Both the position numbers and the translations under genes were made by a program. Below the pieces are notes generated by a model that was not told where the DNA came from, did no database searches, and was given only the letters and a program-made list of their open reading frames with translations. A DNA stretch of 16,972 nucleotides, from the NCBI GenBank assembly GCA_019038735.1, contig JAHOYW010000126.1, positions 1-16,972 of the forward strand. The letters run 5' to 3'. Origin of the DNA: Victivallales bacterium (lineage in GTDB: Bacteria; Verrucomicrobiota; Lentisphaeria; Victivallales; Victivallaceae). Positions 1 to 7,138 of the stretch are shown here, in pieces; the first letter of the stretch is position 1, and every line of letters starts with the position of its first letter.

Positions 1-1434
1 CTCCTAGAGCGTTTTGCCGAACAGGATGCCGATGGTTTATTAGACCAAATCGCTGATGAGACTATTGGCAGTGACGCTAATGAAATAAGGGCGTTCATGG
101 AAAAAGTCAAGCATCCGGCTCTTGAGATGCAGGATATGGCGGAACTCGCCGAATCCGCGGAAGTGGAGGGAAAAATTGAAGTTGAAGAAGAAATAATAGA
201 TACAGTCAAAGAAGAAGCTCCTGCGGCTCCTGCCGGAGTATTGAGCGCTGAAATGATTGAAGAAATCAAAGAACAGGTCAAAACTGAAATAAGTTCTTCT
301 TTGAAGACTGCGGTAACTCAAGAAGTGGTGCGTGATATTATCGCCACTCTCAGTAGTAAATTCCTCGGAGAGGAAATCGCTGTTGCTGAAACTCCGCTCG
401 AACTCGAAAAAGTCGTGGAGCAATTCCCGACCGCGGCGGAACGCCTTGCCGAAGTAAATGCGTTCAAACTGCCGAAAGAAAGCTGTGATGTTCCGATTTG
501 TACCGTAAAAATCGGCGCGACAAAAGCTGATGGCGGTACTCGCGGCGTAAGTTATGAAATCGGCGGCGCGACATCTATGCCATTCCATTTATGGGAAGGC
601 GAAATGCCTAACCGTCCGCTGGTAGCTCTGGAAGTATTTGACCTAGTTAGTGCCAAGTATCCTGAAGCCCTGCGCAAAATATATGGCAACCTGCTGGAAA
701 ATCCGGCAGAAATGGCAAAAGTATGCGTTGATAAATACGGTGCGGATCTGATTAGTGTAAGACTCGAAGGTACTCACCCTGAAAAAGGTAACCGCAGTGC
801 GGAACAGGCTGTTGAACTGGTTAAATCAGTTCTTGCGGCGGTTGATGTTCCCTTAATCGTTACCGGACACAGTAATTTTGAGAAAAATAATGAAGTGATG
901 AAAGCTGTAGCGCAGGCATGTGCTGGTGAAAACTTGATTCTCAACTGGGTTGAGCAGGATAACTACCGCACTATCGCCGGAGCCGCAATGGCTTATGGTC
1001 ACACTATTGTCGGACAGAGTCCAATTGATGTAAACATTGGTAAACAGTTGAACATCCTGATGGGCAACATGGATATCAAGAGTGAACAGATTATCATGGA
1101 TCCGATGACCGGAGCTACCGGATACGGTATTGAATATACATATTCAGTAATGGAACGTATCCGGCAAACAGCTTTGGGCGGCGACAAGATGCTGGCTCAA
1201 CCAATGATCGTATCTCCCGGTCAGGAATGTGCCAAAATCAAGGAAACTAAAGCGCTTGAAGCTGATTTCCCTGAATGGGGCGATCTAGATAAACGTTATG
1301 CCGTATGGGAATTGACAACAGCTGTCAATTTACTTTATTCCGGTGCCGACATTCTGATTATGTACCACCCGGAAGTGGCGGTTCAAGTCAAGAAGACCAT
1401 CTTTGAATTGATGGACGGAACAGTTACTAAATAA
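1..1434 (+). CDS. acsD: Corrinoid iron-sulfur protein small subunit (AcsD/CdhD), 5'-partial, apparently fused to an acetyl-CoA synthase C-terminal tail
   Basis: Small subunit of the corrinoid iron-sulfur protein (CFeSP), a TIM-barrel partner that helps carry the methyl group from methyl-tetrahydrofolate to acetyl-CoA synthase (ACS). The family core starts near residue 169 of the open frame (KIGATKADGGTRG) and runs to the stop, with QSPIDVNIGKQLNIL at 339-353 and GYGIEYTYSVMERIR near 380; it is closer to the long archaeal CdhD form than to the short Moorella AcsD. The frame is open from base 1 with no stop. Residues 1-45 (DQIADETIG, then FMEKVKHPALEM) resemble the end of the ACS catalytic subunit as I remember it. 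An acidic, helix-prone linker with AAPAAPA-like sequence joins the two parts (about residues 50-130). So this is probably an ACS-CFeSP fusion cut by the window edge. The alternative is an internal start at ATG 97, which has an AAGGG six bases upstream, but that ATG lies inside the ACS-like stretch. The function of the core is secure; the start is not. Confidence 0.88.
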   Translation, partial: LLERFAEQDADGLLDQIADETIGSDANEIRAFMEKVKHPALEMQDMAELAESAEVEGKIEVEEEIIDTVKEEAPAAPAGVLSAEMIEEIKEQVKTEISSSLKTAVTQEVVRDIIATLSSKFLGEEIAVAETPLELEKVVEQFPTAAERLAEVNAFKLPKESCDVPICTVKIGATKADGGTRGVSYEIGGATSMPFHLWEGEMPNRPLVALEVFDLVSAKYPEALRKIYGNLLENPAEMAKVCVDKYGADLISVRLEGTHPEKGNRSAEQAVELVKSVLAAVDVPLIVTGHSNFEKNNEVMKAVAQACAGENLILNWVEQDNYRTIAGAAMAYGHTIVGQSPIDVNIGKQLNILMGNMDIKSEQIIMDPMTGATGYGIEYTYSVMERIRQTALGGDKMLAQPMIVSPGQECAKIKETKALEADFPEWGDLDKRYAVWELTTAVNLLYSGADILIMYHPEVAVQVKKTIFELMDGTVTK

Positions 1435-1534: not shown

Positions 1535-2890
1535 ATGGCTAAAAAATTAACAGGTCTTCAGATTCAGAAGCTGTTGCCCAAAACCAATTGTAAAGAGTGT
1601 GGTTCTAATACCTGCCTTGCTTTCGCGATGAAACTCGCCGGCGGCAAAGCAGAACTCGCGGACTGCCCATACGCTTCCGATGAAGCAAAGGCAGTGCTCG
1701 GAGCAGCCAGTGAACCACCGGTAAAAGGCGTCGCTTTCGGTGCTGAAAAAAATATTAAAACCGGCGAAGAAACTTGTTTCTATCGTCATGAAAAAACATT
1801 CGTCAACCAGACTCTGTTCGCAATCAATATCAATGATACTGATTCAGCCGAGGATATCGATAAGACTTTAGCGGAGGTGGCAGAATACGAACTCGACCGC
1901 GTCGGTGAACTGCTCTCAATCGAAATGATTGCTATAAGTCAGAAAGGCAGTGATGCCGAAGCTTTTGCCGCGCTTGCGGAAAAAGCCTGGACTAAAGCAA
2001 AACGTCCGCTGATTCTCTACAGCAAAGACGCGAAAGCCCTTGCGGCGGCAGCGAGTGTGGTAAAAGGTTCAAACTCTCTTATCGGTCCAGCAACACCGGA
2101 AAACGCTGATGACTTAATTGAAATAGCAAAAACTAATGAGCATGCCTTGATAGTTACTGCTCCGAATTTGAATGAGCTGGTTCTATTGACCGCGAAAATC
2201 AAAGACGGCGGTTTTAATAATCTGGTCATCCAGTTTCAGACAAACTCTCTGGCTGAACATTTTCAGGTGAATTCAATTGCCCGTAAAGCGGCATTGAAGG
2301 ATTCTTACAAAGCACTTGGCTATGCCAGTTTGAATTTTATCACGGATACTGATTTGCTGAGTTCTTCAGTTACAGCAATCAATGATATAACTAAATTTGG
2401 CGGAATCTGCGTACTTCCAGAGTTTGACAAGGCACAACTTGTCGGATTGATGGCACTGCGTCAAAATATTTATACCGACCCGCAGAAACCAATTCAAGTT
2501 GAACCTAAAGTCTATGCTATCGGTGAGCCGGACAAGGATTCTCCTGTGTGGGTTACTACCAATTTCTCGCTTACCTACTTTATTGTGGCAGGTGAGATTG
2601 AAAATAGCGGTCTGAACGCCTGGCTGATAATCCCCGAATGCGAAGGCATGAGTGTACTTACCGCATGGGCGGCAGGTAAATTCAGCGGTGCTACTATTGG
2701 TAAATTCTGCAAAGAAATCGGAATTGAAGATAAAGTAAACACTCGCGAAATAGTCATTCCCGGCTATGTCGCGCAAATCAGCGGTGAACTTGAAGAAAAT
2801 ATGCCCGGATGGAAAGTCATCGTAGGCACACAGGAAGCCGGAGATATTGAAAGTTTTGTCAAAGCAAAATTTGACAAGTATTTGACTTAA
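1535..2890 (+). CDS. acsC: Corrinoid iron-sulfur protein large subunit (AcsC/CdhE)
   Basis: Large, cobalamin-carrying subunit of CFeSP. Its cobalt centre cycles between Co(I) and methyl-Co(III) and passes the methyl group to the A-cluster of acetyl-CoA synthase in the cytoplasm. The N-terminus holds the 4Fe-4S motif with C19, C22, C27 and C44 (CX2CX4CX16C); in this family the cluster helps reductive activation. The middle is the TIM-barrel-like domain, and the last ~110 residues (GKFSGATIGKFCKEIG to the end) fit the C-terminal domain that binds the corrinoid. The length of 451 residues is normal for the family. The start is supported by AAGAGG at 1521-1526, eight bases before ATG. It follows the small subunit gene on the same strand, separated by the heptamer repeat array, and is followed after 16 bases by its activator gene. 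Confidence 0.95.
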   Translation: MAKKLTGLQIQKLLPKTNCKECGSNTCLAFAMKLAGGKAELADCPYASDEAKAVLGAASEPPVKGVAFGAEKNIKTGEETCFYRHEKTFVNQTLFAININDTDSAEDIDKTLAEVAEYELDRVGELLSIEMIAISQKGSDAEAFAALAEKAWTKAKRPLILYSKDAKALAAAASVVKGSNSLIGPATPENADDLIEIAKTNEHALIVTAPNLNELVLLTAKIKDGGFNNLVIQFQTNSLAEHFQVNSIARKAALKDSYKALGYASLNFITDTDLLSSSVTAINDITKFGGICVLPEFDKAQLVGLMALRQNIYTDPQKPIQVEPKVYAIGEPDKDSPVWVTTNFSLTYFIVAGEIENSGLNAWLIIPECEGMSVLTAWAAGKFSGATIGKFCKEIGIEDKVNTREIVIPGYVAQISGELEENMPGWKVIVGTQEAGDIESFVKAKFDKYLT

Positions 2891-2906: not shown

Positions 2907-4802
2907 ATGCCAGTTATAAGCTTTCAGCCATCAGGAAAAAACATTGAGGCAAAAGCGGGGTCAAACCTGCTCGAAGTCGCCAGAGAAGCCGGAGTTGAGA
3001 TTATTGCTCCATGCGGCGGCAAAGGTACTTGCGGCAAATGTATTGTCAGGATAAGTTCGGGGAATGTTGAATCCAACAGCCTCGGCATTCTGACTGCTGA
3101 TGAATTAGCTGGAGGCTATGTACTGGCATGCAAAACCCAAATAAATGATACTCCTGTTACAGTAGAAGTACCCGAACAAATAGCTAGAAAAGGTGGAAAA
3201 TTCACCTCAAGCGAGGAGGATTGCGGACTTATCAGGGAAGAACTCTTCCCGCATAACTGGCAATTCGACCCGCTTGCTTTGAAATGGTGTGTCTCTGTAG
3301 CGGAAGCAAAGTTGGAAGACGGACTTTCAGACCTTGACCGTCTCTCTCAGGCTATTCAAAAAGACTGGGGGAAAAATGAAGTCGTATATTCTTTTGAAGT
3401 AATCAGAAAAGTCGCCGACACTATCCGCGAGGATAATGGCAACGTAACGATTACAATGATCCGTGAGCCGGGACGCTCACATATAATCGGCATTGAAGCG
3501 GGAAACAAAACCGAACAGCATTACGGAGTCGCGATTGATATAGGCACTACTACTGTATCCGTGCAGCTTATTTACCTGCCGGACGGCAAAGTCGTGGGTA
3601 CTCAAACAGATTACAATGACCAAATCACCTGCGGACTGGATGTTATCAGCCGCATCAATTATGCCGCCAAAGCAGGCAATCTTGAAGAATTGAGAAAACG
3701 GATTCTGGATACACTAAACAAGTTGCTGGCAAAACTTGAGACCATGCACCATATCGAGTCGCATGATATTTATAACGCGGTTATTTCAGGCAATACCACT
3801 ATGATTCATCTTTTACTGGGTCTAACTCCTGAATATATCCGTCTGGAACCATATACTCCAACTATTCTCCAAGCTCCATATCTAACCGCCAGCGAAGTCG
3901 GGATAGATATAAATCCGCAGTCATGGGTCTATTTGTCGCCAAGTGTGGGAAGTTATGTCGGCGGCGATATCAGCGCCGGAATTCTCTGTACCGATCTGGC
4001 AACAGACAGTGAAGACTTGAGTCTATTTATTGACATCGGCACCAATGGCGAAATCGTTATCGGTAATTGCGACTTCATGATGACCTGCGCGTGTTCCGCC
4101 GGTCCGGCTTTTGAAGGCGGCGGCATAAAATGCGGCATGCGCGCCGCACTGGGAGCAATTGAAAAAGTCGAAATAGACCCGAAGACCGCCGATGCGAAAT
4201 ACCAGACAATCGGCGATGTAAAACCCAAAGGTATCTGTGGTTCCGGCATGATTTCCTTGCTGGCAAAGCTCCTGCTCACCGGCTGGATCGACCCTGCCGG
4301 CAAGCTTGACCGCTCCAGGCCATCTAAATTTATAAAAATTGAAAAGCGTTCCGCAAGTTACATCATAGTTCCCGCCGAAGAGAGTGACAACGGCAAGGAA
4401 ATTGTCATAAATGAAGTTGATTTTGAAAATATTATCCGCACCAAAGCGGCAATATATTCCGCTTGTTCATTGATTCTCAATCAAGTTGAAATGTCCTTTG
4501 ATGATATTTCAAATATCTATATAGCCGGGGGATTCGGACGTTTTCTGGATCTGGAAATGTCGATTACTATCGGTTTACTCCCCGACCTTGACAGAAGTAA
4601 CTTTAAATATATCGGCAATTCATCGCTGATGGGCACATATATGGTGCTTATGTCACAGGAATTTAGAGAAAAACAACTTGATATAGCCAAGCGCATGACC
4701 TATATTGATTTGAGCAGTGATCCTAAATACATGGATCAGTATATGAGTGCGCTATTCCTACCGCATACAGATAAATCACTGTTTCCATCAGTAAAAATTT
4801 AA
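2907..4802 (+). CDS. Reductive activator of CFeSP (RACo), ferredoxin-ASKHA ATPase
   Basis: ATP-dependent activator that reduces CFeSP from inactive Co(II) back to Co(I) after accidental oxidation. Residues 1-80 form a plant-type 2Fe-2S ferredoxin domain with ligands C36, C42, C45 and C75 (CX5CX2CX29C). After a linker domain, an ASKHA nucleotide-binding fold starts at about residue 205 (AIDIGTTTVSV), with a second phosphate loop DIGTNGEIVIG near 374 and the adenosine-type motif AGGFGRFLD near 538. This is the layout of the DUF4445/RACo family, and 631 residues is usual for it. The gene sits 16 bases behind the large CFeSP subunit, the classical position for RACo. Similar proteins activate other corrinoid proteins, such as those of methyltransferase systems (RamA/RACE types), but the neighbours point to CFeSP. 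Confidence 0.92.
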   Translation: MPVISFQPSGKNIEAKAGSNLLEVAREAGVEIIAPCGGKGTCGKCIVRISSGNVESNSLGILTADELAGGYVLACKTQINDTPVTVEVPEQIARKGGKFTSSEEDCGLIREELFPHNWQFDPLALKWCVSVAEAKLEDGLSDLDRLSQAIQKDWGKNEVVYSFEVIRKVADTIREDNGNVTITMIREPGRSHIIGIEAGNKTEQHYGVAIDIGTTTVSVQLIYLPDGKVVGTQTDYNDQITCGLDVISRINYAAKAGNLEELRKRILDTLNKLLAKLETMHHIESHDIYNAVISGNTTMIHLLLGLTPEYIRLEPYTPTILQAPYLTASEVGIDINPQSWVYLSPSVGSYVGGDISAGILCTDLATDSEDLSLFIDIGTNGEIVIGNCDFMMTCACSAGPAFEGGGIKCGMRAALGAIEKVEIDPKTADAKYQTIGDVKPKGICGSGMISLLAKLLLTGWIDPAGKLDRSRPSKFIKIEKRSASYIIVPAEESDNGKEIVINEVDFENIIRTKAAIYSACSLILNQVEMSFDDISNIYIAGGFGRFLDLEMSITIGLLPDLDRSNFKYIGNSSLMGTYMVLMSQEFREKQLDIAKRMTYIDLSSDPKYMDQYMSALFLPHTDKSLFPSVKI

Positions 4803-4812
4803 GGAAACTATT

Positions 4813-5400
4813 ATGTTATCAAATAAACAACAAGCTGTTGAAAAAGCCGTAAATATAGCTATTAATAAACTCAAAAATATTAATATAAAAGAACGCTGTA
4901 AACTGCATGGGCTTGAAATATCAACTGATAATAAAATTGACATGCGCCTCTTTGGGAAAAATATAAGTTTGGATATAAATGATTTCTCCACTGACGCCAA
5001 AGCTTCCGATATTCTTTTAGTTCTACATTATCTTCTCTGTGATATTCCAGTCAAAAAAACTGGTGAGCTTATCTCATTTAGGGAATTTACCGGCGGACAA
5101 TTTTATTACGAACCTTTTTTATCTAAAACCGTAAAACCGCTTATCAATAAATATGCTAATGATATTGAAAGTATTAAAAAATGCATGGGAAAATTTGATT
5201 ACGAGGAAGTTAAACTCGGAGATTTTGGAGCAAAAATCCAGTCTTTCGGACCTTTTGAAATAACTTTAATATATCACCTCGGCGATGACGAATTTCCGGT
5301 TGACGCGGAAGTCTTATTCGATTCATCATTCAAGCGTATCTTTGTAGCCGAAGATGCCTCAGTTATAGCCAGCAGAATCTGCATAGGACTACTCTTTTAA
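4813..5400 (+). CDS. DUF3786-type protein of unknown function
   Basis: A 195-residue soluble protein resembling the DUF3786 family, recognised from memory by a central block around LLVLHYLLCDIP, GELISFREFTGG and the C-terminal DDEFPVDAEVLFDSS. No signal peptide, membrane segment or metal-binding cysteine cluster is visible; it has only three cysteines. DUF3786 proteins occur mainly in anaerobes with corrinoid or Wood-Ljungdahl enzymes, so a helper role for CFeSP or its corrinoid is a reasonable guess but unproven. AAGGA stands seven bases before the ATG, and the gap to RACo is ten bases, so it should be co-transcribed. Base composition is more AT-rich than that of the enzyme genes before it. 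Confidence 0.72.
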   Translation: MLSNKQQAVEKAVNIAINKLKNINIKERCKLHGLEISTDNKIDMRLFGKNISLDINDFSTDAKASDILLVLHYLLCDIPVKKTGELISFREFTGGQFYYEPFLSKTVKPLINKYANDIESIKKCMGKFDYEEVKLGDFGAKIQSFGPFEITLIYHLGDDEFPVDAEVLFDSSFKRIFVAEDASVIASRICIGLLF

Positions 5401-5427
5401 AGAAAAAATAAGCGATAAGGTATATTT

Positions 5428-6429
5428 ATGAATCTTTTTGTTATAGCCGGTTTTTTAGGATCAGGAAAAACAACTTTGCTGCTTTCAATTGCAAAAGCGG
5501 TTTCCGCCGCAGGAAAGAAAATGGTCGTCATCGAAAATGAAATCGGCGACATCAGTGTTGACGATGTAATGCTTGAAGGTGAAGGACTCGAAGTCAGAGA
5601 GATTGCTTCCGGGTGCATTTGTTGTTCTCTGCGCAGTGATTTGATAAATACATTACTCGAAATAGAACGCGACTATAATCCTGATATTGTAATCCTTGAG
5701 CCATCCGGCGTGGCATCTCCTAAACAAGTTATGAGTGCCCTAGTCGGCTACGGCGGTAAAATTGAACATAAACATGTAGCGGTAATTGTTGACGCTAAAC
5801 GTTATCAAAAAATAATGCATGCCGATATTCCAATTGTAAAAGACGGTATTAACAGCGCGGACATCCTGGTGATAAACAAGTGTGATCTGGTCAATAATGA
5901 TGAACTTGAAATGATTGAGCAGGGCTTAAAGAAAATCAGACCAGAGATAAAGACTCTGCAGGTTTCCACGCATGCTAATATAAATGTCGATAAACTAATA
6001 AATACATTTCTGGCGGTGCCGGACAATGGAAAAAGTAAAGACAAAGTATATTTTGATTTAAACAAAGGCAAAGGTACTGCCCCGATAGCCTATGCGCATG
6101 GCTTTGATATTCCAGTCAATGACGATTTCAACGGGAAAGTATTTGCCGAGGAAATATCTGCTGTACTAAAAGAAATAAGCCTTGAACTTGAGCAGACGGG
6201 ATGTAAACTTATTGGTCATATAAAAGCAATCGCTAAATGTTCCAGCGGCGGTTATATGATGTTCAGCGTAACTTCTGCCGGACAATGCCCGGATATAAAA
6301 GGACGCCTACCCCGCAAACCTGAAAACCTGAAAATTGCTCTAAATGTAATTGTTTATGGAATAAATAAAAATATAGTAGAACAGATTGTAATAAAATGTC
6401 TTAATAATGGAGGAATAAACAATGGTTAG
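5428..6429 (+). CDS. CobW/G3E-family GTPase, putative metallochaperone
   Basis: A SIMIBI-class G3E GTPase (CobW/HypB/UreG group) that uses GTP hydrolysis to deliver a metal to a target protein. Seen in the sequence: the P-loop GFLGSGKTT at residues 8-16, the metal-binding CXCC motif GCICC at 62-66 (C63, C65, C66), an EPSG switch at 91-94 and the guanine-specificity motif NKCD at 150-153. The C-terminal third does not clearly show a standard CobW C-terminal domain. Placed among CFeSP genes, it could load nickel into ACS/CODH or handle cobalt/corrinoid; the metal cannot be read from the sequence. Its last eight bases overlap the next gene, which implies translational coupling. AGGTATATTT lies just before the start, so the ribosome-binding site is only fair. 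Confidence 0.85.
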   Translation: MNLFVIAGFLGSGKTTLLLSIAKAVSAAGKKMVVIENEIGDISVDDVMLEGEGLEVREIASGCICCSLRSDLINTLLEIERDYNPDIVILEPSGVASPKQVMSALVGYGGKIEHKHVAVIVDAKRYQKIMHADIPIVKDGINSADILVINKCDLVNNDELEMIEQGLKKIRPEIKTLQVSTHANINVDKLINTFLAVPDNGKSKDKVYFDLNKGKGTAPIAYAHGFDIPVNDDFNGKVFAEEISAVLKEISLELEQTGCKLIGHIKAIAKCSSGGYMMFSVTSAGQCPDIKGRLPRKPENLKIALNVIVYGINKNIVEQIVIKCLNNGGINNG

Positions 6430-7138
6430 ATGTCCCGGACAAGACACCAGATATTGGACTCCTGAAGATATTTTTGATGTAAAATGTCCTTTCTGCAATA
6501 AAGAACTGGAATTTTTCAAAGACGAACCGTTCAGGATTTGTCCTGAATGTGAAGCTGAAGTGCGTAATCCTAAAATTGACCTCGGCTGTGCTAAATGGTG
6601 TAAATACGCTAAAGAATGTTTAGGGAAGCTCGCTCCGCAGGACGATGGAGAAGTCACTATGTGCGATCGGCTTATCGCTGAAATGCGGGATATATTCGGC
6701 GATGATCGCAAGCGTATAAGTCATTCGTTAAAAGTTTTAAGTTTTGCCGAAGAAATTCTCAAACACGAAACAGGCGACCCGCTAACTGTCAGAGCGGCGG
6801 CGATTCTCCATGATATAGGTATTCATGAAGCTGAACACAAGTACAATTCATCCGCCGGGAATTATCAGGAGATCGAAGGTCCGCCGATTGCTGAAAAAAT
6901 AATGAAAAAGCTTAAAATACATGACGAAATCATTGAGCATGTATGCCGAATCATCGCTTCGCATCATAGTGCCAAAAACATTGACACTATAGAATTCCGT
7001 ATAATATGGGACGCGGACTGGATTGTCAACATCCCCGATGAATATCCTGACTTAGAGAAAAAAAGCATTGCAGAATTAATCGAACGCAGATTTAAAACCG
7101 AATACGGCAAAAAAATGGCATTAAGGAAATATACCTAG
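6422..7138 (+). CDS. Zinc-ribbon HD-domain phosphohydrolase-like protein
   Basis: Residues 20-45 form a zinc ribbon (C22, C25, C40, C43), followed by a second cysteine-rich stretch with C56, C60 and C66. From about residue 97 there is an HD domain: H101, the H130-D131 pair in AILHDIGIH, H181-H182 in ASHHS and D197 in IWDADW, the metal-ligand pattern of HD phosphohydrolases. The substrate is unknown; HD proteins may act on nucleotides, phosphoesters or as metal-dependent sensors. The gene starts inside the end of the GTPase gene (8-base overlap) and has a strong GGAGGA at 6409-6414, so the two are probably made together. It is the last gene of the Wood-Ljungdahl group and converges on a minus-strand operon 56 bases further on. 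Confidence 0.85.
   Translation: MVRCPGQDTRYWTPEDIFDVKCPFCNKELEFFKDEPFRICPECEAEVRNPKIDLGCAKWCKYAKECLGKLAPQDDGEVTMCDRLIAEMRDIFGDDRKRISHSLKVLSFAEEILKHETGDPLTVRAAAILHDIGIHEAEHKYNSSAGNYQEIEGPPIAEKIMKKLKIHDEIIEHVCRIIASHHSAKNIDTIEFRIIWDADWIVNIPDEYPDLEKKSIAELIERRFKTEYGKKMALRKYT

Follow-up and report, generated by a model that had tools for sequence, protein, structure and literature searches.

ACS::AcsD, a widespread single-frame fusion of acetyl-CoA synthase and the CFeSP small subunit, seen at a contig end in a Victivallales bacterium

A gene joining ACS to the CFeSP small subunit

We analyzed a 16,972-nucleotide stretch of DNA from a Victivallales bacterium (the window), which opens with a gene that joins the C-terminal end of acetyl-CoA synthase (ACS), which forms acetyl-CoA from a methyl group and CO, to the small subunit (AcsD) of CFeSP, the protein supplying this methyl group. 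This single-frame ACS::AcsD fusion is real, as confirmed by intact genes in relatives, and represents a widespread new architecture of known parts that is visible in annotation and undescribed in the accessible literature.

The first reading frame of the window, ORF1 (1–1434, 477 codons), is open from base 1 to a stop codon at 1432–1434, in agreement with the original prediction that the small-subunit frame extends back to the start of the window. Base 1 is also the first base of contig C4 in the assembly of the organism's own genome (G000; 1.74 Mb, 382 contigs, 72%-complete). Because ORF1 begins at this contig end, approximately 680 N-terminal residues lie off the contig, and ORF1 is only the 3' part, 477 codons long, of a larger gene; it encodes an ACS tail, a tether and AcsD. 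Only 47 ACS residues are within the window and nothing spans the contig end. The fusion and the genes that follow it are laid out as listed below.

1–141, plus strand: end of the ACS catalytic (A3) domain, 47 residues (ORF1 residues 1–47; PF19436), aligning to residues 680–726 of the intact relative L023, with the remaining ACS beyond the contig end
142–504, plus strand: tether of 121 residues (ORF1 residues 48–168), consisting of an acidic/Pro-Ala linker, a predicted helix and a second linker, placed by alignment to L023
247–363, plus strand: predicted amphipathic helix within the tether, corresponding to helix 759–797 in the L023 model (low confidence); consensus T-x-E-[IV]-V-x-x-I-I-x-T-L-S-x-K-F-L-G, not strict
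505–1434, plus strand: CFeSP small subunit (AcsD/CdhD; ORF1 residues 169–477), a TIM barrel, to the stop codon (PF03599, 141 bits; NF003376, 374 bits; the L023 model domain resembles 4djd_D)
1535–2890, plus strand: CFeSP large subunit AcsC/CdhE, with [4Fe-4S] and corrinoid-binding domains (PF04060, PF03599; NF003195, 511 bits, cut-off 306)
2907–4802, plus strand: RACo-type reductive activator of CFeSP (PF14574, PF17651, PF17650, PF00111)
4813–5400, plus strand: DUF3786 protein (PF12654)
5428–6429, plus strand: CobW-family P-loop GTPase, a possible metal chaperone (PF02492)

Both halves of ORF1 were recognized by domain models. Residues 5–46 match the last 43 positions of the ACS C-terminal domain PF19436 (positions 202–244 of 245) with 31.3 bits against a cut-off of 25, and among solved structures the first 120 residues match best to the ACS C-termini of 3git and 1oao, bearing out the proposal that the first ~45 residues are the end of the ACS catalytic subunit. 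The acidic Ala/Pro linker that had been proposed to lead into the CdhD core is the tether. Residues 155–471 match the CFeSP small subunit model NF003376 well above its cut-off of 280 bits; the scores for NF040759 WLP_AcsD (266 vs 430) and TIGR00381 (244 vs 253) are below cut-off. No second ACS piece and no PF03598 match was found in the whole of the 72%-complete G000 genome.

Upstream of the junction, the ACS domain continues in the same frame in relatives, beyond what the window's own contig contains. In the same-genus genome G002, the whole gene is a single 1,153-codon frame with the domain order CODH_A_N, CdhC, ACS_CODH_B_C, CdhD and a score of 1038 bits to the NF040764 alpha/beta family (cut-off 800). 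ORF1 is 89% identical to this gene, aligning to its residues 680–1152, and the differences over the first 53 codons (22, 7 and 5 at codon positions 3, 1 and 2, respectively) follow the pattern of a gene that is under selection. Intact frames of 1,153–1,186 codons occur in eight relatives belonging to its genus, family or order, and each of the nine relatives with the gene has one ACS match, located in a fused frame in eight and in a broken frame in G048. In the five ACS-carrying relatives from the genus and family, neither a stop codon followed by a new start nor a non-ACS upstream sequence was found. The joined gene recurs in many genomes, those of unrelated anaerobic bacteria among them; more distant members of the window's phylum carry ACS and AcsD as two genes.

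The suggestion that methyl acceptor and methyl carrier are on one polypeptide holds in part: the acceptor, ACS, is joined to a CFeSP subunit, but the corrinoid belongs to the separately encoded AcsC, which, from its established corrinoid role, we take to be the methyl carrier. Given that the corrinoid and [4Fe-4S] domains are on AcsC and the small subunit is a TIM barrel, the carrier would be tethered via its partner subunit.

The ACS part of the fusion matches the bacterial ACS sequence over its whole length and keeps the six cysteines of the A-cluster (68/68 complete fusions and 61/61 unfused rows in the alignment; the part of ACS that bears them is missing from the window). In the archaeal ACDS complex (CdhABCDE; PDB 9c0s, 9c0t), the ACS and CFeSP functions are combined in one assembly as separate subunits; its ACS beta chain, which lacks the ACS N-terminal domain, matches the fused gene from L023 residue 319. 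The bacterial ACS of CODH/ACS (Moorella, Carboxydothermus, C. autoethanogenum; PDB 1oao, 1ru3, 6ytt) has the same domain set, CODH_A_N, CdhC and ACS_CODH_B_C, but the solved full-length proteins, of 708–734 residues, end at the HPAL.M tail, whereas the fusion continues via the tether into AcsD. Likewise, the AcsD part has the same barrel as the CFeSP small subunit AcsD/CfsB (PDB 4djd_D, 2h9a_B, 9fzy_E; TM-scores of 0.92–0.94 by target length for the L023 model), but the known AcsD/CfsB proteins are separate chains of about 310–323 residues.

The tether and its proposed role

Among the 68 complete fusions found in the best 80 of 171 loci, the tether, measured from the conserved HPAL.M.DM end of ACS to the barrel, is 72–200 residues long (median 133) and enriched in Ala, Glu and Pro relative to the AcsD core. 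Both its sequence and its length are poorly conserved. The best conserved stretch is the helix, and a loose search retrieved the helix-like pattern from 62 of the 68 fusions, in many phyla. The pattern is missing or degenerate in L050, L051, L058, L074, L091 and L098, and three of these (L050, L051 and L098) have short tethers without residues in the helix columns. Nine unfused AcsD proteins start at the barrel in the alignment, without tether or helix (9/10 unfused genomes of the phylum, with G211 left out).

An AlphaFold2 model of the L023 protein, obtained from 66 aligned sequences (mean pLDDT 82.6, pTM 0.48), consists of two mostly confident domains connected by a low-confidence tether, with the relative placement of the domains not predicted. 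The pLDDT is mostly above 70 in the enzyme domains and below 50 at residues 731–758, 776–784 and 798–818; the helix at 759–797 is accordingly uncertain, with block means of 50–69. Foldseek matched the ACS part of the model to 6ytt_A (TM 0.85) and the small subunit to 4djd_D (TM 0.94; both by target length). The tether is probably flexible.

We consider it likely that ACS::AcsD acts as a single chain with a flexible tether, AcsC pairing with the fused AcsD and CFeSP being held on each ACS through its swing. The chain would run from a bacterial ACS, with its N-terminal, middle and A-cluster domains, through a long tether with one predicted helix to the CFeSP small subunit. Pairing of AcsC with the fused AcsD domain would keep one CFeSP per ACS, and ACS could swing between its closed, CO-accepting and extended, methyl-accepting states while retaining its methyl-delivery partner. 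With the tether leading from the mobile end of A3 to the small subunit, both states might form with CFeSP still attached, and the gain could be a high local concentration and a fixed 1:1 stoichiometry. In a published AlphaFold3 model of CODH-ACS-CoFeSP with extended ACS, the small subunit contacts the N-terminal domain of ACS, and the corrinoid domain of the large subunit contacts its C-terminal domain (PMC12289521).

A possible but clearly less probable explanation is that the fusion only secures 1:1 expression and assembly, with a non-catalytic tether and CFeSP docking as in the unfused enzymes. Tight co-expression is favored in these operons anyway, as in 40 of the 60 loci measured an 8-base overlap links the ACS start to the CODH gene upstream, and the poor conservation of the tether in sequence and length is compatible with a passive connector. 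However, adjacent, translationally coupled genes would achieve the same, and the recurrence of the helix-like pattern in the great majority of the fusions, across many phyla, suggests a specific contact. Much more doubtful still is that the chain is made as one and then cut in the tether, yielding ordinary ACS and AcsD: a long, poorly conserved tether modeled with low confidence is perhaps open to proteases, but the tether column counts revealed no obvious conserved cleavage motif and show conservation peaking at the helix.

As a natural single-chain version, ACS::AcsD offers a ready construct for trapping the contact between CFeSP and ACS. Capturing CFeSP on the swinging ACS is difficult, and one group's grids were too crowded with CFeSP, although for C. 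autoethanogenum a CFeSP-ACS complex has been observed (PMC12289521; PDB 9fzy).

Distribution and origin of the fusion

In a scan of genome contigs, 198 stretches matched; 171 of them encode relatives, and the best 80 of these 171 loci were kept, a set biased towards the query. By our score rule, ACS and AcsD are in one frame in 76 of the 80 loci, several of which are cut by a contig end; outside this count are L094, L097 and L102, cut at contig ends, and L089, with the frame split inside AcsD. All 68 complete fusions share one architecture and, going by submitter titles, 57 are spread over 14 phylum labels, the other 11 having none. The window does come from a fragmented, 72%-complete genome and starts where its contig does, but with the same frame open in G002 and in these 76 loci, and with one architecture in all complete fusions, a joined frame produced by an assembly or sequencing error (a missed stop or an indel) has a negligible chance of being the explanation, and for the lineage it is refuted by the intact frames of the relatives.

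Within the window's phylum, 26 of the 387 genomes surveyed had a match: 15 are fused across the junction, 10 are unfused and one (G295) is cut short, ending before the junction. Among the fused genomes, the frame is intact in 12; the other three are G000, G247, where the gene is divided between two contigs, and G048, where a run of N interrupts the frame. G383 was counted as unfused: the 1,316-codon fusion that the genome search suggested for it was rejected, as ten stops lie in between and a CooC-like frame separates ACS and AcsD. Separately, G383 carries a nearly identical ACS N-terminus on each of two contigs (L198, L133), reflecting either two copies or an assembly overlap.

Searches with two unfused ACS queries yielded no fusion-length proteins among the best 120 of 8,000 scored for each, the lengths being 691–755 and 731–734 residues. 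Of 31 shorter proteins listed in the first protein search, many keep a remnant of the ACS end and most others start within the tether; we took them to be fragments or products of mis-called starts and left them out of the unfused examples. A few shorter proteins on contigs longer than 10 kb (e.g. P0037, P0056) could be re-split genes. The source-given protein names mostly mention one half of the fusion, and two JGI names (P0009, P0108) list both. No mention of an ACS-AcsD fusion was found in the accessible literature, which takes in few subscription journals and preprints.

In phylogenetic trees, which used 34 of the 68 fused rows and roughly one in three of the unfused database rows, the fused ACS domains group as a single clade (bootstrap 81; 65 rows, 31 unfused), as do the fused AcsD domains (bootstrap 100; 42 rows, 8 unfused). 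The sister group of the fused ACS is the G383 type (support 99), and the placement of the long branch L091 is unsure. The same split between fused and unfused sequences had a support of 0.54 at the midpoint root of an earlier 129-row FastTree, which left out ten unfused loci that the later 65- and 42-row trees took in. On the fused tree, the phylum labels require 21 changes where 13 would be the least possible, a count that is also raised by binning errors and odd labels. Taken together, the trees appear to fit best with a single fusion event and subsequent spread between phyla. Separately, 18 tree rows comprising Treponema, Oscillospiraceae, Christensenellaceae, Clostridia, Synergistaceae and Actinomycetota fusions form one group (SH-aLRT 100), a hint of transfer among bacteria that share habitats.

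The operon and its methyltransferase

Another contig of G000, C129 (4,923 bases; locus L199:216–4923), carries the gene order HcyMT, core-MetE-like, CooC2, CooC1, CODH, with CODH breaking off at about residue 282, at the contig end. C129 and C4 most likely derive from opposite ends of a single operon, with ~3 kb missing between them, a join that we infer.

Among the METHYLTRANSFERASE partners, AcsE was found in 0 of 80 fused loci and the core-MetE-like gene in 56 of 80, both within the fetched stretches of up to 8 kb on each side, many of which are shorter. In the 53 fused loci with more than 6 kb upstream, the core-MetE-like gene is present in 51 and a stand-alone homocysteine methyltransferase in 29. 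In whole genomes of the phylum, the core-MetE-like gene was detected in 14/14 fused genomes (70–100% identity) vs 3/10 unfused ones (38–53%), and a single-domain AcsE adjoins AcsD in 8 of the 10 unfused genomes (in G211, by contig coordinates only). The 14 fused genomes of the phylum had no single-domain AcsE: 11 match only in frames of ~800–1,230 codons and three have no match.

Five of the long AcsE-matching frames were scanned, and each has the set of homocysteine, pterin and B12 domains known from MetH; the three of 805–812 residues lack the activation domain. G000 itself encodes, on contig C74 (locus L159:529–2943), an 805-residue MetH-like protein without the activation domain, and its pterin domain scores 263 against the NCBI cut-off of 259 for the methyl-THF:CFeSP methyltransferase domain, a cut-off that the AcsE query itself, at 253, just misses. 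Similar frames are present in other fused Lentisphaeria genomes. In 28 other fused genomes, we found four with AcsE-sized proteins of 29–34% identity located away from the fetched operon, three scoring over the NCBI cut-off (323–336) and one below (239); in the rest, there are three weak matches of similar size (25–31%), six genomes have none, and the others match in longer frames. Complete loss of AcsE from fused genomes is at odds with the AcsE-type domains present within the MetH-like protein of G000 and as single-domain proteins in three of the 28 others. MTHFR scores over its cut-off in 22 of 24 genomes of the phylum, and therefore methyl-THF is probably made. So AcsE appears to have left the fused operon, and a folate route to CFeSP could still operate.

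The core-MetE-like protein has a MetE-like barrel in which the zinc ligands H-x-C and a distant C are present. Although 36 of its 43 members match PRK00957 at E up to 0.001 (best E 1e-10), the scores, 34.6 and 36.9 bits for two members, are far below the cut-off of 258. Five of the 43 also weakly match the CoM methyltransferase MtbA; the family profile gave no match to PDB sequences at E 0.1, and Pfam gave only scattered matches, in one or two members. A half-size MetE-like barrel with the ligands H-x-C...C is likewise described for the core-MetE of Dehalococcoides (PMC7005905), but the operon protein is only a distant relative of it and sits in a CODH operon together with the fused ACS::AcsD. 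The authors of that study hypothesise that CFeSP is the methyl donor for the Dehalococcoides enzyme where acsE is absent (PMC7005905).

Because AcsE is missing from the operon and the core-MetE-like zinc methyltransferase is usually present, the tethered CFeSP might conceivably exchange its methyl group with a thiol such as homocysteine/methionine. In a fuller version of this idea, the acetyl-CoA pathway would have a distinct branch: ACS tethers CFeSP, the core-MetE-like zinc enzyme replaces the operon AcsE, and tetrahydrofolate takes no part in the step that moves the methyl group between acetyl-CoA and a thiol (homocysteine/methionine). We regard this branch as rather unlikely, having first rated it somewhat higher, though still short of even, and then lowered that estimate because AcsE-type domains turned up elsewhere in some fused genomes. 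The unfused sister lineage G383 has no single-domain AcsE match, and a 53%-identical core-MetE lies there beside CODH and an ACS start; the enzyme swap thus seems to be older than the fusion. If the methyltransferase change is functional, the reading of carbon flux from many uncultured genomes would be altered.

Two further observations concern the window itself. After RACo, at 4813–7138, genes for DUF3786, the CobW-type GTPase and an HD-domain follow in the same direction, and a relative of the DUF3786 protein recurs beside fused operons in 15 of the 80 loci (best 80 of 171). Between the fusion stop and the AcsC start, at 1479–1517, there is a perfect 7-bp tandem repeat, AACTGAT, in 5.6 copies.
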